Source of the DNA: Lewinella cohaerens DSM 23179
GTDB taxonomy: Bacteria > Bacteroidota > Bacteroidia > Chitinophagales > Saprospiraceae
DNA: 64,000 bases
Assembly (NCBI RefSeq): GCF_000379805.1
Contig: NZ_KB903539.1
Coordinates: 6,372 to 70,371 of the forward strand
Direction of reading: 5' to 3'
The notes below the pieces were generated by a model, which worked only from the letters and a program-made list of their open reading frames with translations, ran no database searches and was not told the origin of the DNA. This document shows positions 38,242 through 63,681 of this stretch, piece after piece; within the stretch, counting starts at the first letter, position 1, and every line of letters begins with the position of its first letter. Both the position numbers and the translations under genes were made by a program.

Positions 38242-38249
38242 AAGAGGGG

Positions 38250-38711: not shown

Positions 38712-38761
38712 GTTTAAAATAGAATTAATTATAGAGATGTGTTTATTTTTTTGAGCAATAC

Positions 38762-40000: not shown

Positions 40001-40120
40001 ACGGAGGAATGTTTTTTCGAGGAGGATCATTTATTCTAAGAGTAAAGGTAAAATAAACACAACTATTTTCCGGGGTTTTGTTGTTATAGAAATAGAAGAT
40101 CCTAACCACTTCATTGCTCC

Positions 40121-40972
40121 ATGCAACAGCAAACCATTTTGATCACCGGAGGTAACGATGGCATTGGCCGTGCTACCGCTCAAGTCCTGCTTGAACGGGG
40201 ACACCGCGTAATTATTGCTGGCCGCTCGAAGGAGAAATTAGCGGCAGCGGTAGCTACACTTAGGTATCGTACGAATAAAGAAGCCATTGATTGGCTCTAC
40301 TGTGATTTGGCTAGTTTAGAAACAGTTAGAGAGGCTGCAAGTACTTTTACGACGCAGTTTGGTAAGCTAGATGTCTTGATTAACAATGCTGGTGTTTTTA
40401 CCAATGAACTTCAGTATTCCGAAGACGGGATTGAATTACAATTTGCAGTTAATCACTTGGGGCATTTTCTTCTCACCAAGTTGTTATTACCATTATTAAA
40501 GGCTGCTCCGGCAGGCAGGATTGTGAATCTAGCTTCGGTGGCACATTTTCACGGCAAGCTGGATTTTGAAAGCCTGACAGGAGAAGATGGCCCCGAATGT
40601 TACAATGGCCTTGAGGCTTATGCACGTAGCAAGCTGGCCAATGTCCTTTTTACACGTGAATTGGCCCGCCGGTACCCGGAAATTGAAAGCAATTGCCTGC
40701 ACCCAGGGGTTATTCGTACCCGAATTGCAAACAAGGAGACCCGCTGGTTTATCTCGCTATTCTGGAATCTATATAAGCCTTTTATGCGTTCTACGCGTTG
40801 TGGTGCCCGCACCCCACTTTACCTGGCGATGAGCCCCGAAGTACGGAATGTCACTGGGCGGTATTTTGACGAACGACAATGTTGTCGCAAGCCATCGATG
40901 TTGGCCCGTGACCCCGAACTTGCCCATGAATTATGGGAATGGAGTGATGTAATGACGCAAGAGATGGCTTAA
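40121..40972 (+). CDS. Short-chain dehydrogenase/reductase
   Basis: This 283-aa protein has the cofactor motif TGGNDGIGRATAQVL (residues 7-21), NNAGVFTNE, the catalytic serine region LASVAHFHG and the YARSKLAN YxxxK dyad, then HPGVIRTRI. This is the retinol dehydrogenase-like classical SDR subset. The substrate is unknown. Its stop overlaps the opposing gene's stop, with the two stops sharing TTAA at 40969-40972. Confidence 0.93.
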   Translation: MQQQTILITGGNDGIGRATAQVLLERGHRVIIAGRSKEKLAAAVATLRYRTNKEAIDWLYCDLASLETVREAASTFTTQFGKLDVLINNAGVFTNELQYSEDGIELQFAVNHLGHFLLTKLLLPLLKAAPAGRIVNLASVAHFHGKLDFESLTGEDGPECYNGLEAYARSKLANVLFTRELARRYPEIESNCLHPGVIRTRIANKETRWFISLFWNLYKPFMRSTRCGARTPLYLAMSPEVRNVTGRYFDERQCCRKPSMLARDPELAHELWEWSDVMTQEMA

Positions 40973-45633: not shown

Positions 45634-45657
45634 TTCAAAGACAAAAAGTTTTTTAGA

Positions 45658-47187: not shown

Positions 47188-47245
47188 GCTTTAGGTAATT
47201 AATCAACAGTGTACTTGGGTACCTGATGTTTAGATAAAGCAAATG

Positions 47246-47284
47246 AGAATAGGTCAACCAGCAATGGGGGGCCTATTCTTATTT
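47246..47284 (+). terminator. Terminator after the susC-susD pair
   Basis: AGAATAGG pairs with CCTATTCT over an 18-nt loop and is followed by TATTT. It separates susCD from the FG-GAP genes. Confidence 0.7.
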
Positions 47285-47326
47285 AAGATGTAAAGATTTA
47301 AAATCTGAAATATCCTATCATTCTCT

Positions 47327-50300
47327 ATGAATAAACTACTATACCTCCTCTTTATCGTTCCCTTCTTTTTTATTCAATGTACTTCTTCTGAGGATAATAC
47401 TGCTACGAGTGTTTATTCACCGCCAGCTGATGCACGATTCGTAGAAATGCCGACTGCCGAAACGGGCATTGATTTCGTGAATGAGGTGGAAAATACCCGC
47501 GATTTCAATATTTTTAGTTACCGAAATTTCTATAACGGTGGCGGCGTTGCCATCGGAGATATTAATAATGATGGTTTGCCGGATATTTATTTTACCAATA
47601 ACAAAGGCAAGAACAAGCTTTTTCTCAATAAAGGTGATTTTAAGTTTGAAGATATTAGTCAACCCGCCGGTGTGGCTGGAGAACGGGGGTGGAGTACGGG
47701 AGTTGTAATGGTGGACATTAACGCTGACGGCCTTCTGGATATTTACGTTTGTAATGCAGGCTATGTAGAAGGCGACGATCAAGCCAACGAATTGTTTATC
47801 AATAATGGCGACCTAACCTTCACAGAAAAGGCAGCGGAATATGGGCTCAACCAGGGTGGTTATACGACCCACGCTGCCTTTTTTGATTATGACCTCGACG
47901 GTGATCTGGATGTCTACATTCTGAATAACAGTTTCATGCCCGTCAATACGCTCAACTATAGCAACAAGCGGGAACTCTATGCGGAAGACTGGCCAGTACG
48001 CGACTTTCTCAAAGGAGGTGGCGATAAACTATTGCGTAACGAAGACGGCAAATTTATAGATGTCACCAAGGAAGCCAACATTTTTGGTAGCCTCATTGGT
48101 TTTGGTTTAGGGGTTACTGTGGGAGATGTTAACGGCGATTTATGGCCGGATCTCTACATCTCCAATGACTTTTTTGAACGCGACTACCTCTACATCAATC
48201 AACAAGACGGCACCTTTCAGGAAGAAGTCAAAGACTGGATGGAACACCTGAGCCTGTTTTCGATGGGCGCCGATATGGCGGACATCAACAACGATGGTTA
48301 TCCCGAAATTTTTGCTACGGATATGCTGCCGGATGAAGATTACCGCTTGAAAACTACCACTACCTTTGAAAATTACAACATCTATCAACTCAAGCAGCAG
48401 CGTGATTTCTATCACCAGTATATGCAAAACACGCTACAGCTGAATAATCAGGATAATTCCTTTAGTGAGATTGCTTATTTCAGCGGTGTCTCTTCCTCCG
48501 ATTGGAGTTGGGGAGCCCTTATGTTTGATGCTGATAACGATGGATTAAGAGATATCTATGTTTGTAACGGCGTTTACCAGGATGTCACCAACCAGGATTT
48601 TATCAACTTCTTTGCGAATGAGATTATTCAAAAAATGGCGCTCACCGGTAAAAAGGAAGAGATCGAAAAAATCCTGGAAGAAATGCCTTCCACACCTGTT
48701 CGCAACCGCTTTTTTCACAACAATGGTGATTTGACTTTTGACGAAAGTAGTGAGGCCTGGGGCTTTGGCGAGAAAACCTTTAGCAACGGTGCCGCTTATG
48801 GCGACCTCGATAATGATGGCGATTTGGACTTGGTGGTGAATAACCTCAACCAGCAAGCTTTGGTCTACCAGAATAAAACGGATAGCCAGGACGAAAACCA
48901 TTACTTAAGTGTGAAGCTAAGCGCACCAGCGCCCAATACGTATGCCTTAGGCGCGAAAGTATTTGTTTACCAAAATGATCGCCAGCTCAATTTTCAGTTG
49001 GTGCCTAGCCGGGGCTTTCAATCTTCTGTGGATTACAAGATGGTATTTGGGTTGGGGGAAAGCGGCCAGGTAGATTCCGTTCAGGTAATCTGGCCAGACC
49101 GCACCAGCACGATGCTTCATGGTGTGAAAAGTGACCAGGTGTTAAATATTGACTACGCCACGGTAGAAAAACAACCTTACACCCCTGCCAAGGCTGGTAT
49201 GGATGCTAAAAAACTGCTGCTACAAGAAGCTTCTTTGGACGTTACCCCTCATACCGAAGATCGCTTTATCGATTTCTTCCAGGAAGGCCTGACCATGAGG
49301 ATGATTTCCCGCGAAGGGCCTAAGACTGCTGTTGGTGATGTCAATGGTGATGGCCGCGATGATATCTACTTGGGTGGTGCTTCTGGCTGGCCAGGACAAA
49401 TGCTTATTCAAAAAGGAAATAGTTGGCAAGCCACCAATATCAAAACCTTTGAGCGGACCAACAATTACGAAGACACTGCTGCCGCCCTCTTTGATGCTGA
49501 TGGTGATGGTGACCTGGATTTGTTTGTGGGCTCAGGCGGTAACAATATGCCAGTGGGGCATCGCTATATGCAAGACCGGTTGTACATCAACGATGGCAGA
49601 GGCAACTTTGAAATGAACCCTCGCGCCCTGACGGCCAGTGGTTTCAATACCTCCGTTGCTGTACCCCTGGATGTTGATCAGGATGGCGACTTAGACCTTT
49701 TTGTCGGTAGCCGGAGCATACCTTCTCAGTATGGTAGCAACCCACCTAGCTTTATGTATATCAATGACGGTAAGGGGACTTTCCGTGATGAGATAGAAAC
49801 CTATGCACCGGAATTGGCCAGCCTGGGCATGATCACCGACGCTGTAAGCGCCAACCTTATGGGGGATGAAACCCCTGAACTGATTGTGACCGGAGAATGG
49901 ATGGCCCCTGCTGTTTTTCAGTGGGATGGCGAAAAATATGCCAGAACAAAGACCAATCTCGATGATAAATCTGGCTGGTGGTATGCCGTAGAAACAGCCG
50001 ATTTGGATGGTGATGGTGATCTTGATTTGGTGCTGGGTAATCGGGGAGAGAACTTTTATTTTACCGGTACACCGGAAGCGCCTGCCAAGTTGTGGCTCTC
50101 CGATTTTGATGACAATGGAACCACCGAGAAAATTATTACCCGTAGTATTGATGGGCGTGATATGCCTATCCCAATGAAGGATGAGTTGACGGGCCAGATT
50201 GTGAGCCTGAAAAAACAAAACCTGAAACACGCTGAATACGCTCAACGTAGCATCGACGAGTTGTTTAGTGCCGAAGTAATGGCCAAGGTGAAGGTTAAAG

Positions 50301-50680
50301 AAGGCAACTTCTTCCGCTCCATCATCGCGCTAAACGATGGTAATGGACAATTTACGATACAGGAATTGCCTGCCGAAGTACAGTTTTCCTGTGTTTGCGA
50401 TATTTACTGTGGCGATTTGAATGGAGACCAACTGCCTGATCTAATGCTAGGTGGTAATGATGGTGGATTTACGCCGCAGTTTTCCAAGTTGGATGCCAGT
50501 TTTGGCCACGTTTTAATCAATAGCGGCAATGGGCAGTTCAATAGAATTCCGCAAAGTGAATCCGGCTTTTTTGTTAGGGGAGATATCCGACAGTTGGTGC
50601 CAGTAGCCAAAGGGGGGCAACCTTACGTATTGGTAGGTATCAACAATGAGGCTGCCCAGTTATGGAAGATTAATAAATAA
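47327..50680 (+). CDS. FG-GAP/VCBS repeat lipoprotein with ASPIC/UnbV domain (first of tandem pair)
   Basis: This 1117-aa protein has a lipoprotein signal (MNKLLYLLFIVPFFFIQC, C18). It contains more than ten calcium-binding-like loops of the DxNxDGxxD type (DINNDGLPDIYF, DYDLDGDLDVYI, DLDNDGDLDLVV, DADGDGDLDLFV, DVDQDGDLDLFV) forming beta-propellers, and an ASPIC/UnbV segment (VQVIWPDRTSTMLHGV). The family occurs beside SusCD genes across Bacteroidota and is expected at the cell surface. A role in binding or processing the SusCD substrate is inferred. The next gene encodes a close homologue. Confidence 0.9.
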   Translation: MNKLLYLLFIVPFFFIQCTSSEDNTATSVYSPPADARFVEMPTAETGIDFVNEVENTRDFNIFSYRNFYNGGGVAIGDINNDGLPDIYFTNNKGKNKLFLNKGDFKFEDISQPAGVAGERGWSTGVVMVDINADGLLDIYVCNAGYVEGDDQANELFINNGDLTFTEKAAEYGLNQGGYTTHAAFFDYDLDGDLDVYILNNSFMPVNTLNYSNKRELYAEDWPVRDFLKGGGDKLLRNEDGKFIDVTKEANIFGSLIGFGLGVTVGDVNGDLWPDLYISNDFFERDYLYINQQDGTFQEEVKDWMEHLSLFSMGADMADINNDGYPEIFATDMLPDEDYRLKTTTTFENYNIYQLKQQRDFYHQYMQNTLQLNNQDNSFSEIAYFSGVSSSDWSWGALMFDADNDGLRDIYVCNGVYQDVTNQDFINFFANEIIQKMALTGKKEEIEKILEEMPSTPVRNRFFHNNGDLTFDESSEAWGFGEKTFSNGAAYGDLDNDGDLDLVVNNLNQQALVYQNKTDSQDENHYLSVKLSAPAPNTYALGAKVFVYQNDRQLNFQLVPSRGFQSSVDYKMVFGLGESGQVDSVQVIWPDRTSTMLHGVKSDQVLNIDYATVEKQPYTPAKAGMDAKKLLLQEASLDVTPHTEDRFIDFFQEGLTMRMISREGPKTAVGDVNGDGRDDIYLGGASGWPGQMLIQKGNSWQATNIKTFERTNNYEDTAAALFDADGDGDLDLFVGSGGNNMPVGHRYMQDRLYINDGRGNFEMNPRALTASGFNTSVAVPLDVDQDGDLDLFVGSRSIPSQYGSNPPSFMYINDGKGTFRDEIETYAPELASLGMITDAVSANLMGDETPELIVTGEWMAPAVFQWDGEKYARTKTNLDDKSGWWYAVETADLDGDGDLDLVLGNRGENFYFTGTPEAPAKLWLSDFDDNGTTEKIITRSIDGRDMPIPMKDELTGQIVSLKKQNLKHAEYAQRSIDELFSAEVMAKVKVKEGNFFRSIIALNDGNGQFTIQELPAEVQFSCVCDIYCGDLNGDQLPDLMLGGNDGGFTPQFSKLDASFGHVLINSGNGQFNRIPQSESGFFVRGDIRQLVPVAKGGQPYVLVGINNEAAQLWKINK

Positions 50681-50699
50681 AGAAACAGTACACGAAAAT

Positions 50700-53600
50700 A
50701 TGAGGAGTACGATCATCTTAATTGTAGGGGTTTTAGCCCTCGTTTTTACAGCTTGTAACCCTTCAAGCAACAGCGTAGAGGGACCTCAGCGCTCAGAAGA
50801 CCCGAGCTTTCGGCTGCTTACCAAAGCAGCTACAGGTCTGGATTTTACCAATGAGTTGCGCCAGTCCAGCGAGTTTAATGTATTTAATTACATGTATTTT
50901 TTCAACGGTGGTGGTTTGGCTGCTGGCGACTTCAATCAAGATGGTAAGGTAGACCTTTACTTTACCAATAACATGGGCCCTAATAAACTCTTCTTGAATG
51001 AAGGAGGAATGAAATTCCGTGATGTAACCGACGAAGCCAAAGTAGCTGGTATGAACGGCTGGACAGCGGGCGCTACCGTGGTGGACATCAACAACGATGG
51101 CAAGCTGGATATTTACGTTTCCCAAATGGGCGAATACAAAACCATTCAGGGGCGCAACCAACTCTATGTTTGTCAGGAGATCAAAGATGGTGTTCCCATC
51201 TTTGCAGAAGAGGCTATTCCTTACGGACTCGATCTGGCTGGTTTTGGTACACAGGCTGCCTTCTTCGACTATGATCTGGATGGTGACCTGGATATGTACC
51301 AGCTCAATGCTTCGTTGCACGCCAATGGCACCTTTGGGCAAAAGGAGACTTTCGTAGGCACCCAGCACCCAATGGCAGGCGATAAGCTGATGCGTAATGA
51401 TGGCGATACCTTCACGGAAGTAACCATAGAAGCGGGTATCAATAGTACTGTAATTGGCTATGGTCTCGGCATTGCCACGGCAGATATTAACCTTGATGGT
51501 TGGCCCGATATTTACATTGCCAATGACTTTCACGAAAATGATTACCTCTACTTAAACCAGCAGGATGGTACCTTCAAGGAGGTGATGCGTGAGCAAATTC
51601 AGCACACCAGCAGATTCTCTATGGGTGTTGATGTAGCGGATATCAACAATGATGCCCAATTGGACATCATTACCTTGGACATGTTGCCGGAAGATCCTTT
51701 TATTTTAAAGAGCTCACTGGCGGAAGATGCCTACGATATTTTCCAATTTAAACTCCGATATGGCTATCACCCTCAGTATGCACGCAACAACTTGCAGCTT
51801 AATAATGGTAATGGAACCTTTAGCGAAATTGGCCTCTACGCCGGAGTTGAAGCGAGTGATTGGTCATGGGCGCCGCTGTTTTTTGATTTTGAGAATGATG
51901 GCTATCGCGATCTTTTTATCAGTAACGGCATACCTCGTCGTATGAATGATATTGATTACATCAACTTCCGTGCGAATGGTGAACTACGTTGGAAATCCAG
52001 TACCAATAATCTGGAAGAAGATGACTTGGTATTGGTCGATAGTATGCCTCAGATTAAACTGCCAAACAAGTTTTACCACAACAATGGCAACCTGCGCTTT
52101 GATGACTTGAAAGCGGAGATCGACGGCGCTTTACCGACCTATTCCAACGGTGCGATCTACGCTGATCTTGACGGTGATGGTGATCTGGATGTAGTCGTAA
52201 ACAACCATGAGGACGAGCCTTTTGTTTACGAAAACCTTAATGCGGATAAAGAAGCATTAGGTGATTATCTGCATTTGAATTTTGAGGGAACTCCTGAAAA
52301 CATTCACAGCATCGGTGCAACCGTTGTGGCCTACAAAGGCACCGAAAAGCTATTGATGCAGCACTTCTCGGCTCGGGGATACCAATCGGCGCAGCCACTA
52401 GGAATTTATTTGGGAGTAGGGGATGCCGCATCGGTGGATTCTGTTCAGGTAATCTGGCCTGATCGTACGTACCAAAGCTATACGGATTTGGCATTTAACG
52501 AGGAGGTTACCGTTCGTTGGCAAGAAGGCCTTCCGGCGTATAATTACCAGCAATTGCACTTCGTAAACCCTTCAAAAGTAGCTTTTGCTGATCGTACTCA
52601 AGCGGTAAGATTAGATTACCTGCACAAAGAAAACCCTTATGTCGACTTCAACCGGGAGGCTTTGATGCCAAATATGGTGTCGGCAGAAGGCCCGGCCGTA
52701 GCCGTAGGTGATGTAAATGGTGATGGATTAGACGACGTATTCCTTGGTGGCGCGAAGCGTGAAATCAGCAGGTTGTACCTCCAGCAAGCCAATGGCACCC
52801 TGCTGGCTGCACCCAAAGACCTGTTTTCTTCAAGCTCCCTCCAGGAGGATGTGGACGCCGTATTTGCCGATCTTGATCAGGATGGTGACCTTGACTTAGT
52901 AGTCGCTAACGGTGGAAACGAATTTAGAGAAAAAAATGCCGCCCGCACTCAGCGCGCTTACCTTAATGATGGACAAGGCAACCTGACGCTAGTGCCGGAC
53001 TTTTTCCCAAATTCCTACTTAACCGCTTCTTTTGTAGATGTGGCTGACTACGATGGTGATGGTGACCTGGATGTATTTTTTGGTGGCCGAGCAGTGCCTT
53101 GGCACTATGCCACATCGCCTCGTTCGTTGCTGTATCGCAACGATGGCAATGGCAAATTTACAGATGTTGGCCAAGAAGTAGCGCCCATACTTTCTGAGAT
53201 AGGAATGGTCACCAGGGGCGAATGGACAGATATGGATCAAGATGGCGATCCCGACTTGGTACTCTCGCTGGAATGGGGTGACATTCAACTGTTGCGTAAT
53301 GACAAAGGCAAGTTTACCGCTCAGTCTATTACCGATCAACAATCGTGGTGGAACACCGTCTTGGTGCGCGACTTTGACGGTGATGGCGATATGGACATAC
53401 TAGCTGGTAGCTATGGTGAAAACTCGAAGTTGAGTCCTACGCCAGAGGAGCCTCTGCGCTTATACATCAATGACTATGACGATAACGACCAGGAGGAGCA
53501 TATTCTGACCTACTATCTGGATGGTAAAGAATATCCCTTTGCTACCTTTATGGAACTGACCAAGCAGATGTCTTACCTCAAGAAGAAGTACCTCTTTGCC

Positions 53601-54041
53601 AAAGATTTTGCCCGTGCCAGCTTAACAGAACTCTTCACGGAAGAAAAGCTAGCGGAAGCGAAGTTGATGGAAATCACTTCCCTGTCGAACACCTATTTTG
53701 AGAATACCGGCAACGCGACCTTCAAGGCGCATCGCTTGCCTGATCAGGTTCAATTCTCTACGGTAAACGCCCTCACAGCAATAGACCTTGATGGCGATGG
53801 CCGAGAGGAAGTGCTGGTAGGTGGCAACTTTCATGAGTGCAATATTGAGATGGGCCGTTACGATGCCAGCTACGGGCAGTACCTACGCTGGGAAGATGGC
53901 CAATGGGCCGCCTACCCACTCGGAGACGTCAACCTGACCGGTAAAATCAAACACTGGGTACCGATAACAATTGGAGGCCAGCAGCACGTGGTGGTAGGCC
54001 GTAACGATGGGCCAGCGGTGGTATTGCGGGTAGGGGAGTAG
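50700..54041 (+). CDS. FG-GAP/VCBS repeat lipoprotein with ASPIC/UnbV domain (second of tandem pair)
   Basis: ATG 50700 (1113 aa) begins a lipoprotein signal (MRSTIILIVGVLALVFTAC), while an ORF start at 50646 would overlap the previous gene. Its layout is the same as the preceding protein: NGGGLAAGDFNQDGKVDLYF, DYDLDGDLDMYQL, DLDGDGDLDVVV, VQVIWPDRTYQSYTDL, DLDQDGDLDLVVANGG and DFDGDGDMDILAG. The gap to the upstream stop is 19 nt, so both are likely on one mRNA. The pair probably arose by tandem duplication. Confidence 0.9.
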   Translation: MRSTIILIVGVLALVFTACNPSSNSVEGPQRSEDPSFRLLTKAATGLDFTNELRQSSEFNVFNYMYFFNGGGLAAGDFNQDGKVDLYFTNNMGPNKLFLNEGGMKFRDVTDEAKVAGMNGWTAGATVVDINNDGKLDIYVSQMGEYKTIQGRNQLYVCQEIKDGVPIFAEEAIPYGLDLAGFGTQAAFFDYDLDGDLDMYQLNASLHANGTFGQKETFVGTQHPMAGDKLMRNDGDTFTEVTIEAGINSTVIGYGLGIATADINLDGWPDIYIANDFHENDYLYLNQQDGTFKEVMREQIQHTSRFSMGVDVADINNDAQLDIITLDMLPEDPFILKSSLAEDAYDIFQFKLRYGYHPQYARNNLQLNNGNGTFSEIGLYAGVEASDWSWAPLFFDFENDGYRDLFISNGIPRRMNDIDYINFRANGELRWKSSTNNLEEDDLVLVDSMPQIKLPNKFYHNNGNLRFDDLKAEIDGALPTYSNGAIYADLDGDGDLDVVVNNHEDEPFVYENLNADKEALGDYLHLNFEGTPENIHSIGATVVAYKGTEKLLMQHFSARGYQSAQPLGIYLGVGDAASVDSVQVIWPDRTYQSYTDLAFNEEVTVRWQEGLPAYNYQQLHFVNPSKVAFADRTQAVRLDYLHKENPYVDFNREALMPNMVSAEGPAVAVGDVNGDGLDDVFLGGAKREISRLYLQQANGTLLAAPKDLFSSSSLQEDVDAVFADLDQDGDLDLVVANGGNEFREKNAARTQRAYLNDGQGNLTLVPDFFPNSYLTASFVDVADYDGDGDLDVFFGGRAVPWHYATSPRSLLYRNDGNGKFTDVGQEVAPILSEIGMVTRGEWTDMDQDGDPDLVLSLEWGDIQLLRNDKGKFTAQSITDQQSWWNTVLVRDFDGDGDMDILAGSYGENSKLSPTPEEPLRLYINDYDDNDQEEHILTYYLDGKEYPFATFMELTKQMSYLKKKYLFAKDFARASLTELFTEEKLAEAKLMEITSLSNTYFENTGNATFKAHRLPDQVQFSTVNALTAIDLDGDGREEVLVGGNFHECNIEMGRYDASYGQYLRWEDGQWAAYPLGDVNLTGKIKHWVPITIGGQQHVVVGRNDGPAVVLRVGE

Positions 54042-54374
54042 ATAGCTGAAAATAATTATCCCCGCACCATCGCTCATGTTAGTTCCCAAACTAACATGTG
54101 ATATCCGGCTGGTCTCCCGACCAGCAGACAGCATCTAGTGGTTTAGGCCGTTTAAGCCGTACCTGGGCTTCAGCCCGAGCGTATAATCCACGCTCGGGCT
54201 GAAGCCCAGGTTACGTGCACTGTGAATAGCAAAGCAGGGCGTACGTAGCAGCAGTCAGTTGTCCGGGAAGTATTATCATTGTTTTTCCTGCCCAACAAGC
54301 TCTAAGCTCCTATATTTAAGGATGAAGACAAAGCCAGTGATTGAAAAGCTCCTCTTGTAACAAAAAGTGCCATT
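54042..54374. other. Intergenic region with a strong palindrome
   Basis: This 333-nt gap is dominated by the perfect 22-bp inverted repeat at 54161-54211. A TATATTTA at 54311-54318 is a weak -7-like sequence for the orphan SusC gene. I see no ORF or other motif. Confidence 0.55.
54161..54211. repeat. Perfect 22-bp inverted repeat with 7-nt loop (GGCTTCAGCCC type)
   Basis: 54161-54182 and 54190-54211 are perfect reverse complements around ATAATCC. The arm contains the palindrome GGGCTTCAGCCC, corresponding to GGACTTCAGTCC inside the element at 3450-3585, so the two are probably members of one loosely related repeat class. It may also act as a terminator for the FG-GAP genes. Confidence 0.75.
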
Positions 54375-57300
54375 ATGAAAAATGTGACGCAGCCTTTATG
54401 GATGAAAATAGGGCAAGTACCGGAATTGCAAAAGATGCTAATGGTCAGCGCCCTTTTACTGTTAGGTACTGTTTCGCCTTTAATGGCAACACAAAGTAGG
54501 GGAGAGGGAGCGCTTCAGGGGAAGGCCGTTCTCGGTGAAATACGAGGTGTCCAGTTGTCTTCCAGTGTTTGCCTCCCCAATACGACTCCCCAATTCACGT
54601 ATAAACCAGGCCCGCAGCGAACAGCGGAGGGCGACACCCGGCCAGGGTGGAGGACCAGGGGTGGGAGGACCGAAGGGACGGACGACCCGGCTGCCCTGCA
54701 AACGAAGAGCGCAGTGGCAGGGGCCCATAATCATATAGTACAGGACACCCTCCCGAATAAAATAATGCTAACGGGAACAGTAAAGTCAGCAGCTACGGGA
54801 GATGCGTTGATTGGCGTTTCTATTTTTATTAGAAGCACCGTAACAGGAACGGTGACGGATATTGATGGTGTGTTTGAAATACCAACCAGGGAATTAGATA
54901 CATTGTGGTTTTCTTACACTGGTTTTGAAACCCAAGAACTAATCGTTCTCCCTGGGCAAAAGAGAATAGATGTGCTCATGGCCGAGATCCCCTCGTCGGC
55001 CTTAGGCTGCGGTTACATTTTGCCAAGCCCTTTCAAGGACGAAAGGAATGGGATCTTGAATCTTAGTGAACTCCCCTCACTGCACTTTACCAATCCTTAT
55101 CAACTTCTACGCGGTCAATTTCCAGGTTTAGTGGTCAGTCAAGCAGGTAGTGACCCTTGGGCGGTTCCGGTGTTGCGGCAACAAGGGATACATAGCCTGA
55201 CCCAAAATGCTGCGCCACTGTGGGTGGTAGACGGGATGCCAGGAATGGAGCCACTGCTACTGGATCAGCAAAGTATCGCTTCTGTAAAGTTGCTGCGTCG
55301 GCCAGTGGATTTGGTACGTTATGGGTTGCAATCTGGGGCGGGAGTAATAGAAGTGGAAACGACAGACATTGTCCGTAAAAAACTAGAGGTCGTTTATCAA
55401 GGTCAGCTTACGATTGAGCGTGCTGCACGTTTGCCTGGGGTCGCTACTGCGGAGGAATATCGTCAATATCCAGGCGGCATATCGGATTTGGGTTACGGTA
55501 CCGATTGGTTAGATGAAGTAACCCGGACAGCCCTGAGTCATGGACATCAATTGGCGCTAAGCGGCCGCGATGGTGCAACGATCTGGCAGGTAGAGGGATC
55601 GCTGCGTGATGTGCAAGGGGTAGGGCAAAACAGCGAGTGGACACAATATACGGGCCGGGCGCAACTACAACAATCGTTTTGGCGGGAACGGCTGGTGATC
55701 AAAGCCCAAGTGGCCGGGCAACAACGCCAGGGCGAGCGTGATTATCAGCAGACTTTTTTCCAGGCGGCCAAGTATAACCCTACGGCTCCTATAAGCTTTA
55801 CCGAGCCACCTACCAATCCATTGTTAAATAGTTTTTATGATATCAGCACTAACCAGCTTCGCGATTATTTTGAGGTGGTCCCTTCGGTTGATTTTTACAA
55901 CCCTGTGGCGATACAGGTAGGCTCGAAACTGCTGGAAGAACGGTCGGCCCGCTGGCTCCGGGCAGAGGCAAATTTGCAAATAGCAGACCCGCTTCGGCTG
56001 CAACTGGCCGTTGGGCAACAGGCCAATGATCGCCGTAGTGGGGAAGAGAATCGTACCTACGCATTTTTTCGTGGCAATGGTCATACGACCCAACCAGGTA
56101 GAGCAGAAAGGACGGTTCGTGAACAGCGGCAGGAATGGCTACGAACACGCCTAAATTGGGAGCATCAATTCAGGGGAGCATTTTGGGAACTGCAAGGGAA
56201 CTATGGTTTTCAGCGATTGGAACGTGAAGACGAACGGGCCCAAGGTTTCAATTTTGGCAATGACGATTTCAGGTTCGATAATTTTGAAACCTTCCTGACC
56301 GACCTCAGCTTTTTGGAGCAATCGCGTTACGATGAGCGTACCCGTTTGATTGATTTTGGGCTGGAGAGTAAACTATATTGGCGCTGGCTGGAATGGGAGG
56401 TGGCCGCCAAATACCAAGGAGCAACCAACCTGGGCACCGCAGAACGCTGGCAACCAGTAGGAGGCACTCACCTGGAACTGGGACTGAACGAAATGTTTAA
56501 TATCAACAGCAGAACAAGCTGGAATGCCCATGGTGGATACGCGCAGGTAGGGCAACTGCCACGGGACTTTTCCTATGCGCGTGGCCAGTATGACCCTATA
56601 CGAGAAGATTATGTGAATGTAAACCCTGAGTTGAAACCCGAGCGACGGAGGATTGTAAACGCGGGTTTGAACTGGTATGATTACCAAGGTTTTTTGGGGA
56701 GTATTGATTATTTTGCGAGTATGACCAAAGACCCAATAGTAAAGCTGGAGCGGGAAGATTTGCCTGCTGCGTTGAATGAATTTGGTGTGAATTTAAGCCA
56801 AGTTGCTTTGCGCAACCGCTCGTTGGAACTGGCTATTGGTTGGCAAAAGGGAAGACAACTACAATGGACGACGACCCTGCGTTGGGCGCACATGAAAACC
56901 CAACTGGTGAGTACGGGGGACATAGGTCCGGACAGTTACTTTGATGCCAATGGTCAACGCGTAACTGCCAGGTCTGGTGCTGGTGGCTCTATCTGGCGCA
57001 ATGGGATCGGGTTGGTCGAACTGGATGCTCCTTTCGGGCAAATGATTGGCCGCCAGTTTGATCGAGAGACTACCTTGGCGACTGGTGAGATTAGCTTATA
57101 TGAGACTTTTCAGGGGAAGGCCTTGCCTGCACCCGATGGTGATTATGGAGTGATAGGGAATGGATTGCCAACCAACACTTACAGTTGGTCCAATACCTTG
57201 AGCTATCAAGGCTGGCAATTGGAGGTGCTGCTGCGGGGCGAACTGGGGCACGATTTGGCTCACTTGCGTCGAGGAGAGTTGGAAACGTTCATTGATCAAG

Positions 57301-57680
57301 AAGGTCTTTTCCCTCAGTCGAGAAATTATATGTCTACAGCATTTGACCTACCCGATAACGTAAGTGGTTTTGCCACTTTTTCAGACCGTTACATTGAGTC
57401 AGGAAATTACCTTTCCTTGGATTACCTGAGTATCAGTAGGGTGTTGTATTTGCCAAGTCAGCAATCTTTAAGCATTAGTCTTACCGGCCAAAATTTACTG
57501 TTGTGGACCAATTACACAGGTGTTGATCCCTCTCCGCGCTATGTTGATGAAGGCCCTGAAATTGCTGGTGCTTTGCCAACATTGCGCGAACGTGATGGCC
57601 AGTTGGCACCCGGTATTGACAGGCGTTACTTTTATCCTCGTTCCAGAGCATTGACCTTGGGATTGAAATGGGGCTTGTGA
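54375..57680 (+). CDS. Orphan SusC-like TonB-dependent receptor with N-terminal insert
   Basis: This 1101-aa protein has a signal-like hydrophobic segment at about residues 20-40 (MLMVSALLLLGTVSPLMATQ). Then comes an atypical, basic, low-complexity stretch of about 90 residues (for example QRTAEGDTRPGWRTRGGRTE) before the normal carboxypeptidase-like domain (MLTGTVKSAATGDALIGVSI), TonB plug (PLWVVDGMPGMEPLLLD) and barrel ending SRALTLGLKWGL. No SusD gene is next to it. The codon bias is weaker than in the susC at 42673. A GH97 gene follows by 66 nt, so it may import oligosaccharide for that enzyme. Confidence 0.88.
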   Translation: MKNVTQPLWMKIGQVPELQKMLMVSALLLLGTVSPLMATQSRGEGALQGKAVLGEIRGVQLSSSVCLPNTTPQFTYKPGPQRTAEGDTRPGWRTRGGRTEGTDDPAALQTKSAVAGAHNHIVQDTLPNKIMLTGTVKSAATGDALIGVSIFIRSTVTGTVTDIDGVFEIPTRELDTLWFSYTGFETQELIVLPGQKRIDVLMAEIPSSALGCGYILPSPFKDERNGILNLSELPSLHFTNPYQLLRGQFPGLVVSQAGSDPWAVPVLRQQGIHSLTQNAAPLWVVDGMPGMEPLLLDQQSIASVKLLRRPVDLVRYGLQSGAGVIEVETTDIVRKKLEVVYQGQLTIERAARLPGVATAEEYRQYPGGISDLGYGTDWLDEVTRTALSHGHQLALSGRDGATIWQVEGSLRDVQGVGQNSEWTQYTGRAQLQQSFWRERLVIKAQVAGQQRQGERDYQQTFFQAAKYNPTAPISFTEPPTNPLLNSFYDISTNQLRDYFEVVPSVDFYNPVAIQVGSKLLEERSARWLRAEANLQIADPLRLQLAVGQQANDRRSGEENRTYAFFRGNGHTTQPGRAERTVREQRQEWLRTRLNWEHQFRGAFWELQGNYGFQRLEREDERAQGFNFGNDDFRFDNFETFLTDLSFLEQSRYDERTRLIDFGLESKLYWRWLEWEVAAKYQGATNLGTAERWQPVGGTHLELGLNEMFNINSRTSWNAHGGYAQVGQLPRDFSYARGQYDPIREDYVNVNPELKPERRRIVNAGLNWYDYQGFLGSIDYFASMTKDPIVKLEREDLPAALNEFGVNLSQVALRNRSLELAIGWQKGRQLQWTTTLRWAHMKTQLVSTGDIGPDSYFDANGQRVTARSGAGGSIWRNGIGLVELDAPFGQMIGRQFDRETTLATGEISLYETFQGKALPAPDGDYGVIGNGLPTNTYSWSNTLSYQGWQLEVLLRGELGHDLAHLRRGELETFIDQEGLFPQSRNYMSTAFDLPDNVSGFATFSDRYIESGNYLSLDYLSISRVLYLPSQQSLSISLTGQNLLLWTNYTGVDPSPRYVDEGPEIAGALPTLRERDGQLAPGIDRRYFYPRSRALTLGLKWGL

Positions 57681-57746
57681 TTCTTTTAAAATGCTTGCAT
57701 GAAGCAAATTTGCCGTATTTTAGCAACCTATCTAAAAAGTCGATTT

Positions 57747-59828
57747 ATGCTACGTTTTTCCCTTTACAGTTTATTCTTATTGCTACTGGTTGCGGCCTGT
57801 ACACTTGCTGAGGATGGCCCATCGGTTGTCGATATCAAATCTCCTGATGGTCAACTGGCCCTAAGTTTCCAATTGGATGAGGCGGGTGTAGCAACTTATG
57901 CATTGAAGCGAGGTGAAACCGAGGTAATTCCGGCTTCCGGCCTGGGTTTTTCCTTCCAGGGTGCTCCAGACTTGAAGGCGGGCTGGAAAATCAGCAAGGC
58001 AGCTACCAGTTCTAAAAAAGAGCAATGGGAACAACCTTGGGGAGAGCAACGAATGGTAGAAAACAGCTACCAGGAGGCTCGTGTTGATATAGAAGAAACC
58101 ACCGCACCTATGCGGAAATTTACCCTTGTATTTCGATTGTATGATGATGGTTTGGGCTTTCGCTATGAATTTCCTGAACAGGAAGATATGGGCGAAGTGG
58201 TCATTACCGACGAGCATACCGAATTTTCGTTAACTGGTGACCCTACCTGTTGGTGGATACCTGGCGATTGGGATATTTACGAGCATTTGTATAACCAGAC
58301 GAGCTTTAGTGAGATTGATGCCCTGAGCAAGCGGGATCACCCTAACCTGGCGCAGACTTTCATTCCTGAAAATGCGGTGAATACCCCTGTTACCTTGAAA
58401 ACAGATAATGGTCTTTACCTGAGCTTTCACGAAGCCAACCTCACAGATTATGCGGGTATGACCTTACGGGTAAACAAAGAAGCTAACCGCTTTGAGAGCG
58501 CCCTGGTAGCCTGGGCAGATGGAGCTAAAGTAAAGCAAAAAACGCCTTTCAATACGCCATGGCGGACCATTCAGGTAGCTGAACAGGCGGGCGACCTTAT
58601 TGAAAGCCGTTTGATTGTGAATCTCAACGAGCCCAATGTGCTGGAAGGTGATCAAAGCTGGATCAAGCCGATGAAATACGCAGGAATATGGTGGGAAATG
58701 CATTTGAATAAATCGAGCTGGGACAAAGCCAGCGGCAAGCATGGTGCCACCACCGAAAATGCAAAACGATACATTGATTTTTGTGCCGAAAACGATATCA
58801 GCGGGCTATTGGTTGAAGGTTGGAATACGGGTTGGGAGCGCTGGATAGGCTTCCCTGATCGCGAAGGCGTTTTTGATTTTGTGACCCCTTACGATGATTA
58901 TGACTTGGAAGAAGTCGTGCGTTACGGCAAGGAAAAAGGAGTGAATATCATTATGCACCATGAAACTTCTGCTGCTCCGCGTACCTACGACCAGCAACTG
59001 GATACCGCTTATACATTGATGCAAAACTTGGGCATTCACGCAGTTAAGACAGGCTATGTAGGCCCCATTATTCCCGAAGGAGAACGCCATCACGGACAGT
59101 GGATGGTACAACACTATCGGAGGGTGGTAGAAATGGCTGCCAAGCACCAAGTGGCTATCGATGCGCACGAACCAATCAAAGCCACGGGGCTGCGGCGTAC
59201 TTATCCCAACATGATGACGCGCGAAGGGCTGCGTGGGCAGGAGTTCAACGCTTGGTCATCAGAGGGAGGAAACCCTACCGACCACCTCACGATGGTCGCC
59301 TTTACGCGAATGTTGGCAGGACCAATTGATTATACCCCTGGTATCTTCAACCTGACGATGGAACCGTACAAACCTGATAATCGAGTGAAGCATACGCTGG
59401 CCCACGAGCTGGCGCTTTATGTAGTTATCTACAGTCCTTTACAGATGATGTCTGACTTGCCGGAGCATGCTAGTGGCCAGCCTGGAATGCAATGGGTACG
59501 GGATGTAGCCGTTGATTGGGAGCAAACGAAGGTGCTTAATGGTGAGCCTGGCGACTATGTTACCATCGCCCGCCAGGAACGAGGTGGAAATCGTTGGTTT
59601 ATCGGTGCTATTACAGATGAAAATCCGCGCGCGCTCAGCATTGAACTCGACTTTCTTGATAGAGACAAGACCTATCGCTTAGTGGTTTATCAAGATGGCG
59701 AAGAAGCCCACTGGGAGACGAACCCCACAGCAATGGAAATCGAAGAACGCGAAGTCCGCGGAGGAGATATTCTCGATTTACAGTTGGTCGCTGGGGGTGG
59801 AGCAGCCTTGATGTTGGTACCAATGTAG
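57747..59828 (+). CDS. Glycoside hydrolase family 97 lipoprotein, inverting alpha-glucosidase type
   Basis: ATG 57747 (693 aa) gives a lipoprotein signal (FLLLLVAAC); an upstream in-frame ATG at 57699 is less likely. A beta-sandwich N-terminal domain precedes the barrel (SGLLVEGWNTGWERWIGF, GVNIIMHHETSA, HAVKTGYVGPIIPEGERHHG, AIDAHEPIKATG, MTREGLRGQEFNAWSSEGG). Glu406 (MHHET), Glu475 (DAHE) and Glu499 (RGQEF) keep the spacing (69 and 24) of the catalytic glutamates I recall for SusB (439, 508, 532), which mark the inverting alpha-glucoside-cleaving GH97 subgroup. It acts in the periplasm or at the outer membrane. Confidence 0.92.
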   Translation: MLRFSLYSLFLLLLVAACTLAEDGPSVVDIKSPDGQLALSFQLDEAGVATYALKRGETEVIPASGLGFSFQGAPDLKAGWKISKAATSSKKEQWEQPWGEQRMVENSYQEARVDIEETTAPMRKFTLVFRLYDDGLGFRYEFPEQEDMGEVVITDEHTEFSLTGDPTCWWIPGDWDIYEHLYNQTSFSEIDALSKRDHPNLAQTFIPENAVNTPVTLKTDNGLYLSFHEANLTDYAGMTLRVNKEANRFESALVAWADGAKVKQKTPFNTPWRTIQVAEQAGDLIESRLIVNLNEPNVLEGDQSWIKPMKYAGIWWEMHLNKSSWDKASGKHGATTENAKRYIDFCAENDISGLLVEGWNTGWERWIGFPDREGVFDFVTPYDDYDLEEVVRYGKEKGVNIIMHHETSAAPRTYDQQLDTAYTLMQNLGIHAVKTGYVGPIIPEGERHHGQWMVQHYRRVVEMAAKHQVAIDAHEPIKATGLRRTYPNMMTREGLRGQEFNAWSSEGGNPTDHLTMVAFTRMLAGPIDYTPGIFNLTMEPYKPDNRVKHTLAHELALYVVIYSPLQMMSDLPEHASGQPGMQWVRDVAVDWEQTKVLNGEPGDYVTIARQERGGNRWFIGAITDENPRALSIELDFLDRDKTYRLVVYQDGEEAHWETNPTAMEIEEREVRGGDILDLQLVAGGGAALMLVPM

Positions 59829-59837
59829 CAAATTGGC

Positions 59838-61052
59838 TTAGGCCAACTTCCCAGCAATAAACGCCGTCGTCCAGGCAGATTGAAAATTGTAACCGCCAGT
59901 GATACCATCAATGTCAAGTACTTCGCCAGCGAAGTAAAGATTTTTGCAAACCCTGCTTTGAAGGGTTTTGAAATCGACATCTTGGAGGCTCACGCCGCCG
60001 CAGGTGACAAACTCTTCCTTGAAGGTAGTTTTGCCTTGCACGGCGTATACGTCATTGGTGAGCAGGGAAACGAGCTTGTTGATGCCGTTTTTACCGATTT
60101 CTCCCCATACTTTATCTTCGGTTAGCTGCGCTTTAGTAAGCAAAAAACGCCAGAGTCGCTTGGGGAGGTCGTAGGGAGCAAGATTTCCTGCGTTCTTCTT
60201 AGGGTGCGAACGGGCAATACTTTTTAGGTCGTCACGGACAGTATCGTCATTTCTGCTGGCCGTCCAGTTGATCTGTACATTGAAACGGTAATCTTTTTCA
60301 CTGAGGATGCGGGCACCGTGGGCCGAAAGCTTTAGTATGGCCGGGCCACTCATGCCCCAGTGGGTGATCAACAGTGGGCCATCGGCTTTGAGTTTGGTGC
60401 CTTGAATATTGGCGAGTGCTGGCTCTACCACTACTCCCATGAGTTCGCGTACTGCTTCGCCAGGCATATTAAAAGTAAACAAGGAGGGAACGGGCTCTTC
60501 TATCTTATGGCCTAAATCTTCCAACCATGCCAGGCCGCTGCGTTTGGGTGAGCCGCCAGTGGCTACAATTACTTTATCAAATACCTCTGGTGCTTGGTCT
60601 TCTTTCAGAAAACTCAACAGCCATTGTTCTTCCTGCTGTTGTAGCTTTTTTACGCCATAGCTGGTTTTGATGTTCACCTCCAAGCGGCGAGCTTCTTTGA
60701 GGAAACAATCAATGATGCTTTGTGAACTTTGAGATTCTGGAAAAACGCAATTGTCCTCCTGTATGACGAGGGGCACCCCTCGTTGCTCAAACCAGTTCAT
60801 GGTATCCTGCGTACTGAATATCCGAAAGGCCTTTTTAAGTTGCCGGGTGCCTCGGGGATAAGCCTTGATGAGTTCAGAAATAGTACTGCAACCATTGGTA
60901 ACATTACAACGGCCACCTCCCGAGACTTTGACCTTGGCTAAGAGCTTCGATGATTTTTCGAAAACAGTAACCGTCGCTGTCGGATGATTTTCTTTGGCCG
61001 CCAGGGCCGCAAAGAAGCCCGCTGCTCCTCCTCCAATAATTGCAACCTTCAT
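59838..61052 (-). CDS. FAD-dependent oxidoreductase of the HI0933/YhiN family
   Basis: This 404-aa protein has an N-terminal dinucleotide-binding motif (VAIIGGGAAGFFAALAAKENHP) and a characteristic KVSGGGRCNVTN. A C-terminal FAD-binding segment (FAGEVLDIDGITGGYNFQSAWTTAFIAGKLA) is typical of the HI0933 family. The reaction is unknown; members bind FAD and some are implicated in nucleobase-related redox chemistry. It lies between GH97 and GH65 genes on the opposite strand, so it is probably unrelated to the sugar genes. Confidence 0.93.
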   Translation of the reverse strand: MKVAIIGGGAAGFFAALAAKENHPTATVTVFEKSSKLLAKVKVSGGGRCNVTNGCSTISELIKAYPRGTRQLKKAFRIFSTQDTMNWFEQRGVPLVIQEDNCVFPESQSSQSIIDCFLKEARRLEVNIKTSYGVKKLQQQEEQWLLSFLKEDQAPEVFDKVIVATGGSPKRSGLAWLEDLGHKIEEPVPSLFTFNMPGEAVRELMGVVVEPALANIQGTKLKADGPLLITHWGMSGPAILKLSAHGARILSEKDYRFNVQINWTASRNDDTVRDDLKSIARSHPKKNAGNLAPYDLPKRLWRFLLTKAQLTEDKVWGEIGKNGINKLVSLLTNDVYAVQGKTTFKEEFVTCGGVSLQDVDFKTLQSRVCKNLYFAGEVLDIDGITGGYNFQSAWTTAFIAGKLA

Positions 61053-61638
61053 GAATGCTGTTGAATCGGTATAATAAAAAGTAAAGGTCTGATTTTTCTA
61101 AAGAACCTACTACTTCTTAGCTGGATTTTCGGCATTTTACCGGAAATCGTAGCGGAATTATTAGTAAAAAATGCTTCTGAGAACCTTTAGAATCACCACT
61201 GTTCTGAGTACCATTTTAGAGGAGCCGGAAAGAATGGAAGAGGCTGTCTCGCTGCCCGAGTGGGCGACTTGTAGTGTTCAGTATTGGGCATAGCGCCCTC
61301 AAGTGGGAGGGCCCTCCCAGCTGTCCGGACCGCCGGAACACCCCTCGCCATTCTGACGAATGGGCACGCGAATATACCTGCTCTCAAGAGTGAGAACAGC
61401 CAAGCAATGCGAATTAAAAACCTCTGAATTCCTTTCGGACGAATGAAAGGGTAGTGACCTTCGATTTTTAGTAAAGTAGTCAACTTTACTGGAATACAAA
61501 TGTAAATAAAAAAAAACAATAATTTTTTAATTTATTGAAAAAGTATTTTTTGTTTATCTTTAAAGAGGTGATCCCAAATGAATGGCCTCTTCTTGATTGA
61601 TTTACTCAATTCTTCCTATTTTAAAGCAACAAAAAAGA
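61053..61638. other. Long intergenic region with GC-rich hairpin block
   Basis: This 586-nt gap contains a block of palindromes (61193-61500): GGGAGGGCCCTCCC, GTCCGGAC, CCATTC-TGAC-GAATGG, CTCTCAAGAG and CCTTTC...GAAAGG. Base composition is clearly unlike the A/T-rich flank. A minus-strand frame through it has no recognisable protein features. A promoter candidate for the GH65 gene is at 61535-61562, and no other motif was found. Confidence 0.6.
61535..61562 (+). promoter_or_regulatory. Promoter candidate of the GH65 gene
   Basis: TTG (61535-61537), a 17-nt spacer and TATCTTTA (61555-61562, one mismatch to TAnnTTTG), with a leader of about 75 nt to ATG 61639. Confidence 0.5.
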
Positions 61639-63681
61639 ATGATGAAAAAGCAAATCTACCTGATAATAAGCTGGATACTCCTGTGGAATGCGATCGGAGC
61701 ACAAGACCTTACCAACTCCCCCTGGCATATCCCCGCCACAGATATAGACCACAACCATTATTTTGGGATCACTGTAGCCAATGGTGTGGTTGGACTGGTA
61801 TCGTCGCCAGAGCCGATGAAGGTGCAGGATGTTGTACTCAATGGCGTTTACGATTACTACCAACGTGGCCGTGTGTCCAATATCCTCAAGACGTTCAATC
61901 ACATGAACTTGGACTTAGATATTGATGGCCGCCGTATCGGTAGAGCCGATATCAGCAATTTCGCCCAAGTATTAGATATGAAAAAAGCACAACTCGTGAC
62001 TACCTTCACGGTGGGCACCGATTTGGAAGTTACGCACCGCTTAATGTCTCTTCGGCATTTGCCTTATACTGCCATGAGTATCGTAGAGGTAAAGGCCAAA
62101 CGTAATTTGGAACTTACGGCGACCAGTACCATCGAAGCACCTGATCATTTGGGGGATGTCCGTAACTATTATGCCGAGATCGATCGGCCTCATGTGATGG
62201 TGCCGCTCATGACTTCTGTGGCGAATAGCCCTTCAGGGAAGCAAAAAGTGGCAGCGTCAGTGAGTTTTATCTTTGAAGAGGGCCATGGCCATGAGCCCGA
62301 CCTGATCCACGAAGATTGGGATTATAACCGGCACCTTACCAAATTTAGGAAACCACTCAAGGCTGGCGAAAGCTATTCTTTCAGTGTGGTAGGGTCTACC
62401 TGCGCCAGCCGTCAGTTTGAAGATCCCCACAACGAGGCCGAACGACTTACTATTTTTGCGATGCTTGAAGGCAAAGACCGCCTACTCATGCGTCATCAGC
62501 AAGCATGGGATAAACTATGGGAAAGTGACATCATCATCGAGGGAGACTTGCGCGCCCAGCGGGCCGTGCGTTCTGCCTTGTATCATTTGTACTCTTTTGC
62601 ACGCGCCGGTACCTCTTACAGCCTTTCACCGATGGGCTTGTCTGGTCTGGGGTACAATGGCCACGTATTCTGGGATACTGAAATTTGGATGTATCCTCCT
62701 ATCCTGGCGATGCAACCCGCTATGGCAGAATCACTGATGGAATACCGTTATGATCGACTAGGAGCAGCTCAACAAAACGCCTTTTCACATGGTTACGAAG
62801 GGGCTATGTATCCCTGGGAATCGGCTGATGATGGCACGGAAGACACCCCGGTTTGGGCACTTACCGGCCCTTTTCAGCACCATATTTCTGGCGATGTGTC
62901 CTGGGCTTGTTGGAAGTATTACCAAGTGACTGGCGATAAAGATTGGCTACGCAATCGTGGTTGGCCCATCATGAAATCTGTTGCTGATTTCTGGACCAGC
63001 CGGGTAGAACGTACTGGCCCCGGACAGTATGACATCAAAAATGTCATTGGTGCCAATGAGTGGCTGGAAAATATCGACAACAACGCCTACACCAATGGCA
63101 TGGCTATCACCGTTCTCCGCTATACGGTGCAGGCTGCTGTTGAATTAGGGCTTACGCCTGACCCCGATTGGTCACATGTCGCAGAAAATATCCCCATCGT
63201 TCAGTTCGCTGATGGGACGACGCGCGAGAATGCTACTTATGCTGGCGAAATTATCAAACAGGCTGACGCCAACTTGCTAGCCTACCCCATGGATATTGTT
63301 CAGGGCGAAAAGCGAATTCGCCAAGACCTGGCTTACTATGAACCCAAGATGGCACCAGGTGGCCCTGCAATGTCGGTAGCTGTTTTAGCAACGCTTTACG
63401 CACGCCTTGGCGAACCGGAAGAAGCTTACCGTTTATTCAATAAAAGCTATCAACCCAACGAGGTGCCTCCCTTTGGTGTACTGGCAGAAACAGCTGGTGG
63501 TACCAACCCCTATTTTGCTACGGGAGCAGGAGGGATGTTGCAAACGGTATTATTCGGTTTTGGTGGCCTAGAGATTACGGATCAAGGAATCATTCAGGGC
63601 AAAGGCCATTTGCCTAAGGCATGGAAGTCATTGACCATTACGGGAGTAGGTCGTGATCGAGAGACGTTTAAGGTCGAATAA
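61639..63681 (+). CDS. Secreted glycoside hydrolase family 65-like enzyme (candidate kojibiose/alpha-glucoside hydrolase)
   Basis: ATG 61639 or 61642 (680 or 679 aa) begins a signal peptide (KQIYLIISWILLWNAIGAQ). The N-terminal domain is beta-sandwich-like. The (alpha/alpha)6 barrel contains GHVFWDTEIWMYPPIL and the catalytic block IGANEWLENIDNNAYTNGMA with Glu474. A second conserved glutamate, Glu617, lies in VLAETAGGTNPYFATG. GH65 phosphorylases instead use a phosphate-binding site there. From memory, the kojibiose hydrolase of Flavobacterium johnsoniae uses a Glu pair at near-identical spacing. A hydrolase acting on alpha-1,2 or similar glucosides is therefore plausible. Confidence 0.85.
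   Translation: MMKKQIYLIISWILLWNAIGAQDLTNSPWHIPATDIDHNHYFGITVANGVVGLVSSPEPMKVQDVVLNGVYDYYQRGRVSNILKTFNHMNLDLDIDGRRIGRADISNFAQVLDMKKAQLVTTFTVGTDLEVTHRLMSLRHLPYTAMSIVEVKAKRNLELTATSTIEAPDHLGDVRNYYAEIDRPHVMVPLMTSVANSPSGKQKVAASVSFIFEEGHGHEPDLIHEDWDYNRHLTKFRKPLKAGESYSFSVVGSTCASRQFEDPHNEAERLTIFAMLEGKDRLLMRHQQAWDKLWESDIIIEGDLRAQRAVRSALYHLYSFARAGTSYSLSPMGLSGLGYNGHVFWDTEIWMYPPILAMQPAMAESLMEYRYDRLGAAQQNAFSHGYEGAMYPWESADDGTEDTPVWALTGPFQHHISGDVSWACWKYYQVTGDKDWLRNRGWPIMKSVADFWTSRVERTGPGQYDIKNVIGANEWLENIDNNAYTNGMAITVLRYTVQAAVELGLTPDPDWSHVAENIPIVQFADGTTRENATYAGEIIKQADANLLAYPMDIVQGEKRIRQDLAYYEPKMAPGGPAMSVAVLATLYARLGEPEEAYRLFNKSYQPNEVPPFGVLAETAGGTNPYFATGAGGMLQTVLFGFGGLEITDQGIIQGKGHLPKAWKSLTITGVGRDRETFKVE

Follow-up and report, generated by a model that had tools for sequence, protein, structure and literature searches.

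The stretch of Lewinella cohaerens DSM 23179 analyzed here (hereafter the window: 64,000 nucleotides, G000:C9:6372-70371, where G000 is the 7.3 Mb genome and C9 the contig) carries between 42.7 and 63.7 kb a SusC-SusD cassette with two FG-GAP lipoproteins, a second SusC-like gene, and genes for glycoside hydrolases (GH) of families 97 and 65. The genes are as follows:

42673-45633, + strand: SusC1, a SusC of 986 residues, chimeric (TIGR04056, 663 bits)
45658-47187, + strand: SusD with the lipobox FAC-TD (PF07980, 9.6e-29)
47327-50680, + strand: FG-GAP/UnbV_ASPIC lipoprotein a (PF13517, PF07593)
50646-54041, + strand: FG-GAP/UnbV_ASPIC lipoprotein b (PF13517, PF07593, lipobox)
54375-57680, + strand: SusC2, SusC-like, without a SusD of its own, ending 18 bp upstream of GH97
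57699-59828, + strand: GH97, predicted SusB-type alpha-glucosidase (PF10566/PF14508/PF14509)
59838-61052, - strand: FAD protein, HI0933-type (TIGR00275), convergent with GH97
61597-63681, + strand: GH65, predicted kojibiose-hydrolase-type alpha-1,2-glucosidase with a signal peptide (NF053734, match to 7fe3, active site)

The genes for SusC2, GH97 and GH65 lie where a preliminary description had placed them, and their open reading frames (ORFs) are intact, as is that of the FAD protein. That description had treated the SusC-like protein as an orphan in a locus lacking SusD, which does not hold: SusC1, SusD and both lipoproteins lie directly upstream on the same strand, and this block (42673-54041) ends about 330 bp before the SusC2 gene. 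A SusD-less locus is thus ruled out by the SusD at 45658-47187, and SusC2 is a second SusC beside a full cassette rather than the remnant of such a locus. With SusC and SusD adjacent and GH97 and GH65 on the same strand, the region belongs among SusCD-type glycan loci (polysaccharide utilization loci in the broad sense). Cys18 of lipoprotein a is invariant in 30 aligned homologues, and we infer that this protein binds glycans at the surface or acts as a partner of SusCD; lipoprotein b probably starts at an ATG near 50700. A text search found no published description of FG-GAP/UnbV proteins as parts of SusCD loci; its hits included a paper on CRTAC1 in COVID, an Arenibacter genome note and a marine single-cell study, the available part of which lists FG-GAP among adhesion domains.

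The GH65 protein passes the model for kojibiose hydrolases (NF053734, EC 3.2.1.216) with 1111.6 bits against a cut-off of 800, and its closest solved relative within GH65 is FjGH65A (PDB 7fe3, 1e-237). Its acid E488 and base E631 correspond to E472 and E616 of FjGH65A, and W407, E408 and T423 of the +1 subsite to W391, E392 and T407 (residue roles from the available part of PMC8626586); the phosphate-site serines are absent, and the other active-site letters are P590, A591, F640 and M346. The acid, the base, the +1 subsite and the letters marking the missing phosphate site are unchanged in all 82 sequences compared, which come from the window, from the same-genus species G062 and from 80 named loci (the top 80 of 265, taken with at most 10 kb per side). 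The loss of the phosphate-site residues rules out a phosphorylase, and the earlier statement that the glutamates are those of a hydrolase stands. By its sequence, then, the protein is an enzyme of the kojibiose-hydrolase type, which shares with FjGH65A the family model, the acid, the base, the +1 subsite and the lost phosphate site (PDB 7fe3; PMC8626586, in the part available) and differs from it in genomic context. The annotated TTG start at 61597 is probably too early, the true start more likely being the ATG at 61639/61642 that opens the signal peptide in the translation. In four of the named loci (L106, L128, L133 and L140) the hydrolase is followed, several genes further downstream, by another GH65 of some 800 residues whose Ser-Ser phosphate site is that of the phosphorylase type.

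The GH97 protein is closest among solved structures to PDB 8wg0 (8e-181), which we take to be FjGH97A, followed by 5hq4 (2.5e-178) and SusB (2jka, 9.2e-176), with the retaining alpha-galactosidase 3a24 far behind (6.4e-52). Its E422, E491, E509 and E515, which are glutamate in all 21 sequences compared, stand at motif positions that we take for E439, E508, E526 and E532 of SusB; the catalytic glutamates of a SusB-type alpha-glucosidase noted earlier are indeed there. An alpha-galactosidase is ruled out by the score against the retaining alpha-galactosidase model NF053844 (291 bits, below its cut-off of 800) together with the ranking of the structures. We therefore predict an alpha-glucosidase of the SusB/FjGH97A type, probably an inverting one. 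According to the available part of PMC10316084, FjGH97A acts on alpha-1,6-, 1,4-, 1,3- and 1,2-linked glucobioses and not on trehalose; given this linkage range, GH97 and GH65 together would cover mixed-linkage oligosaccharides.

The genome has one match each to the window GH65 and GH97, and these lie 1.8 kb apart. By simple arithmetic, two random single genes would fall within 20 kb of each other with a chance of about 0.5%, and the closeness of the two is more than chance. Among 120 genomes of the window's family, GH97 lies within 25 kb of GH65 in three of the 18 having both (G000, G062 and G033), a hand count with thresholds of 600 and 500 bits from which contig breaks may hide some. The FAD gene between the two enzymes, probably a bystander, had been taken for an insertion; a recent one is ruled out, since it is also found beside GH97 at the same place in G062 (93% identical) and beside GH65 in L067 (75%). 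The latter, a Bacteroidetes metagenome-assembled genome (MAG), has the second nearest GH65 among the named relatives (84%), after an uncultured Lewinella MAG (L066, 86%) and before Phaeodactylibacter and Saprospiraceae MAGs. In L067:2-7218 the FAD-GH65 pair is preceded by a SusC-like fragment, a SusD-like_2 protein and an arylsulfotransferase-like protein with a weak match to a T9SS tail, and no GH97 is seen within the 10 kb available.

Comparison with G062 reveals where the locus has changed. That species has, in order, the same flanks, a SusC, a SusD, three FG-GAP genes, a PAP2-family protein, GH97, the FAD gene, about 20 kb of other sequence, and GH65. The flanking proteins are 76-96% identical between the two species, GH97 91%, the FAD protein 93% and GH65 95%; the corresponding values are 31% for SusD and 36-45% for the FG-GAP proteins. 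Continuous blastn homology stops inside the SusC gene and restarts at the start of GH97, bounding the following feature:

43013-57733, no strand assigned: replaced module, without continuous blastn match to G062 and with only short scattered ones

Within SusC1, residues 1-25 are 100% and residues 26-110 87% identical to the SusC of G062, and residues 301-986 reach up to 57% identity with the clade of the window type (SusC1 clade) and at most 30% with that of the G062 type (SusCg clade). Segment trees join the N-terminal part to the SusC of G062 (support 0.97) and place the remainder within the SusC1 clade, of which other genera also have members (nested supports 0.90, 0.97 and 1.0, with one of 0.43 between). 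These observations indicate that SusC1 is a chimera of a resident N-terminus (residues 1-110) and a remainder (111-986) from another SusC clade, the identity to G062 being stronger evidence for it than the N-terminal tree. The module difference would thus reflect replacement by recombination. As to its direction, an aspartyl-protease/PDZ gene stands beside SusC in the window:

40969-42210, - strand: aspartyl-protease/PDZ protein (PF13650, PF13180), divergent from SusC

In other genera a gene of this type lies directly upstream of SusC in 13 of 18 assessable SusCg-type and in 5 of 17 assessable SusC1-type loci (hand count), and since both clades adjoin it, either species may have the older state. 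GC content increases gradually, to 0.51 over 54-57 kb, and gives no sign of a boundary. With outer-membrane genes often evolving faster than enzymes of the periplasm, it could be proposed that no exchange took place, the module having diverged fast by selection, for example under phage pressure on surface proteins. Against this, residues 111-986 of the window SusC cluster with SusC1 sequences from other genera rather than with G062, the SusC of G062 matches other genera at 74-78%, and identity shifts abruptly near residue 110; we regard divergence in place as very improbable. The rearrangement suspected in the preliminary description is thereby upheld through the replaced module (43.0-57.7 kb) and the chimeric SusC, and not through a missing SusD or an inserted FAD gene.

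SusC2 lies within the replaced stretch. It scores 238.2 bits against TIGR04056, under the cut-off of 368.25, over residues 131-1097, without a Pfam Plug hit; in the 120 family genomes the best relatives over its full length reach just 28-32% identity (at most six candidates scored per genome), and in the tree its long branch adjoins one SusC clade. Its N-terminal 132 residues give no Pfam hit, and comparison with plasmids gave remote SusC relatives only (21-24% identity among ten listed of 99). On these grounds it is best described as a second, fast-evolving SusC copy. About 90 residues between its signal peptide and a CarboxypepD-like domain (within 54375-54770) lie outside any Pfam family.

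The neighborhoods of GH65 relatives show which of these associations recur. Many of the 80 loci are MAGs, loci end at 10 kb or at contig ends, and 27 have less than about 10 kb upstream; gene families were determined on cluster representatives and extended to the remaining members by BLAST. On the GH65 strand we counted PAP2 in 32, FG-GAP in 29, GH37 trehalase and GlpF in 11 each, GlpK and SusD in 10 each, PfkB in 8, two MFS groups in 7 and 4, GlpD and GH13 (the representative being of the oligo-1,6-glucosidase type) in 5 each, and GH97 in none. With eight too-short loci left out, seven changes on the GH65 tree are needed to account for FG-GAP linkage, which therefore does not go back to a single inherited event; a figure of at least five forced changes was computed with those eight loci as lacking FG-GAP. 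One clade of 18 rows, mostly bearing Cytophagales names, carries much of the linkage. Fisher tests of FG-GAP with vanadium haloperoxidase-like proteins (VHPO), GH37, GlpF and GlpK gave small p values (0.055 for GlpD), but as the rows are related and a tree-aware pair test with four independent pairs gave no significance, we place weight on the number of changes and not on p. From the side of the cassette, SusD matches occur in 67 of the 120 family genomes, and among the 19 best SusD relatives outside the window genome (several of whose loci are cut by contig ends) GH13, GH37 or GH65 lies beside the cassette in eight. In one locus, L131, a gene before GH65 encodes a protein that matches GH26 weakly (26.4 bits, cut-off 20.2), a misfit to the alpha-glucosidase theme.

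These data bear on the possibility that SusC2, GH97, the FAD gene and GH65 are neighbors by location without a common pathway. The opposite orientation of the FAD gene, which separates the two enzymes, would fit this, as would the rarity of GH97-GH65 linkage in the family and the roughly 20 kb between FAD and GH65 in G062 (L062:11380-20000 and L063:1-11000), where a scan of eight proteins showed at least three transposase genes (IS66, DDE_Tnp_1, DDE_3) and glycosyltransferase-like genes. Yet in many other genera GH65 has FG-GAP genes immediately before it, joined by SusC/SusD in loci that extend far enough, and G033, of another genus, independently has SusC1-SusD-FG-FG-GH65 with a LacI regulator, a haloperoxidase, GH37 and GH97 within about 21 kb. 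That they are unrelated neighbors therefore seems unlikely.

Of the PAP2 proteins, those of G062 and L104 (Fulvivirga marina) match the Zobellia vanadium iodoperoxidase (PDB 4cit) at 2.5e-159 and 4e-164, and among 34 members in GH65 loci the motif SGH is kept in 34, SR-YGGIH in 33 and DEK-S-RP in 30; the gene directly follows GH65 in 23 of the 34. Examples are:

L104:12015-13352: PAP2-family protein
L062:5328-6698: PAP2-family protein

The homologue is part of the G062 version of the locus and lies outside that of the window, in whose genome it stands alone on contig C68. Such haloperoxidase-like genes are regular neighbors of GH65 or GH97, occurring in 32 of the 80 GH65 loci.

Taken together, we think it fairly probable that the 42.7-63.7 kb region constitutes one functional neighborhood for the uptake and hydrolysis of small alpha-linked glucosides, including those with alpha-1,2 bonds, which has been rearranged such that import specificity probably changed while the enzymes were kept. 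In this scheme the sugar would be bound on the outside of the cell by SusD and the FG-GAP/UnbV lipoproteins, its TonB-dependent import would proceed through SusC1 and perhaps also through SusC2, and the two enzymes would release glucose, GH65 from terminal alpha-1,2 bonds and GH97 from alpha-1,6, 1,3 and 1,4 bonds. The block from SusC through the FG-GAP genes up to the start of GH97 would have been swapped, with one junction in SusC near residue 110, probably altering what is imported and sparing the enzymes.

The preliminary description had pointed to the same families in dextran/branched alpha-glucan loci; the window locus would then be one of the FjDexUL type of Flavobacterium johnsoniae that lost parts. 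GH97 and a kojibiose hydrolase GH65 are both enzymes of FjDexUL, accompanied there by SusC/SusD in the order dusR-C-D-E-GH66-GH31-GH97-GH65 (PMC10316084, in the part available), and the closest solved relatives of the window enzymes are FjGH65A and 8wg0. The sharing of families thus stands. The GH66 and GH31 dextranases of such loci are not found in the window locus: no GH66 match exists in the window genome, and GH31 matches occur on contigs C8 and C3, weakly on C57, and not on C9. The window locus also lacks SusE/F and SusR, has two FG-GAP/UnbV lipoproteins where FjDexUL has SusE/F, and has a second SusC; moreover, related cassettes lie beside trehalase, oligo-1,6-glucosidase-type GH13 and glycerol genes, and GH97 and GH65 are linked in just the three of 18 family genomes. 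We hence consider derivation from a dextran locus quite unlikely. The linked glycosidases that could be assigned belong to exo-acting alpha-glucosidase types differing in linkage, and no endo-acting alpha-glucanase was seen among the representatives scanned, most ORFs of the loci lying outside that scan. The missing GH66, the placement of GH31 elsewhere and the exo-type partners make small alpha-glucosides a better fit than a polysaccharide.

In loci with glycerol genes, these genes point to 2-O-alpha-glucosylglycerol as a possible substrate. Under this proposal such loci scavenge compatible solutes, with this compound as the substrate of the GH65 group and trehalose as that of the linked GH37, the glycerol being used via GlpF-GlpK-GlpD. 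The same-strand counts of GlpF, GlpK, GlpD and GH37 given above are in its favor, as are the four changes on the GH65 tree that glycerol-gene linkage requires, the presence of a glucosylglycerol phosphorylase already within the GH65 family, and a member of the window's family (G087, L209) with GlpK and GH37 beside a SusC1-type cassette. Glucosylglycerol is an osmolyte of many cyanobacteria (PMC11787520, in the part available), and lies outside the substrate lists of FjGH65A and MmGH in the available parts of their descriptions. On the other hand, the names attached to 11 of the 12 glycerol-linked loci are those of Cytophagales, Chitinophaga or unplaced Bacteroidetes; G088 is the one genome of the window's family with GlpK no more than 10 kb from GH65 (a hand comparison in which contig breaks may hide others); and the window genome has its GlpK on C46 and its trehalase on C15, away from the locus. 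Furthermore, all 82 sequences keep the +1-subsite residues with which FjGH65A binds kojibiose, and the tree-aware pair test gave no significance. Solute scavenging thus appears doubtful, and weaker for the window than for the loci with glycerol genes. The trehalase match on C15 (G000:C15:21956-23494, L227), the genome's only one to the L104 trehalase, has one TGA and one TAG in the aligned stretch, yet an open frame of 496 residues. A broader version can be put forward tentatively, as a rather unlikely possibility: SusCD/FG-GAP-UnbV loci with GH65 may be an unnamed Bacteroidota class for the uptake of small alpha-glucosides and osmolytes, in which GH65 would hydrolyze 2-O-alpha-glucosylglycerol, trehalase and GH13 would handle companion substrates, a vanadium-haloperoxidase-like enzyme would be a regular partner, and the cassette would be exchanged between species by recombination inside SusC.

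Returning to the proposed neighborhood for small alpha-glucosides, several observations weigh against it. GH97 is near GH65 in none of the 80 named loci, which makes the pairing a local one, and 11 of 19 SusC1-type loci have no GH13, GH37 or GH65 in the stretch fetched. L067, the closest named relative with 10 kb upstream, has no FG-GAP gene there, while L066 has less than 1 kb upstream. The two SusC clades are poorly resolved by the first 110 residues, in whose tree two SusC1-clade rows stand among SusCg rows, and SusC2 has no explanation beyond divergence. Finally, the cassette may serve substrates that the neighboring enzymes do not process.

No regulator (SusR, HTCS, or ECF sigma/anti-sigma) was found among the 13 window genes scanned with Pfam (35571-63681, with the ORF at 38250-38711 outside the scan). 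Promoter and terminator scans did no better than shuffles, and Rfam gave no match over 40-64 kb. Further upstream, genes for two permeases of the BPD_transp_1 type and for a membrane dipeptidase of family M19 (35571-40030, - strand) suggest a peptide uptake set.

Natural substrates other than kojibiose may lie behind the family name "kojibiose hydrolase", because the partners of these enzymes (trehalase, glycerol uptake and kinase, haloperoxidase) are unlike a dextran pathway and glucosylglycerol is outside the substrate lists of the two characterized enzymes. The change in the window resembles that in the fructan locus of Bacteroides thetaiotaomicron, where, according to the available part of PMC5967196, close relatives share the locus but have different import pairs. 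That case is between strains and its change of diet has been shown, whereas the present one is between species, includes FG-GAP genes and has its junction inside SusC. It would be a clean case, outside Bacteroides, of a two-clade SusC splice and a surface module swap beside conserved enzymes, and as such a useful, if not revolutionary, example of how these loci may change diet.

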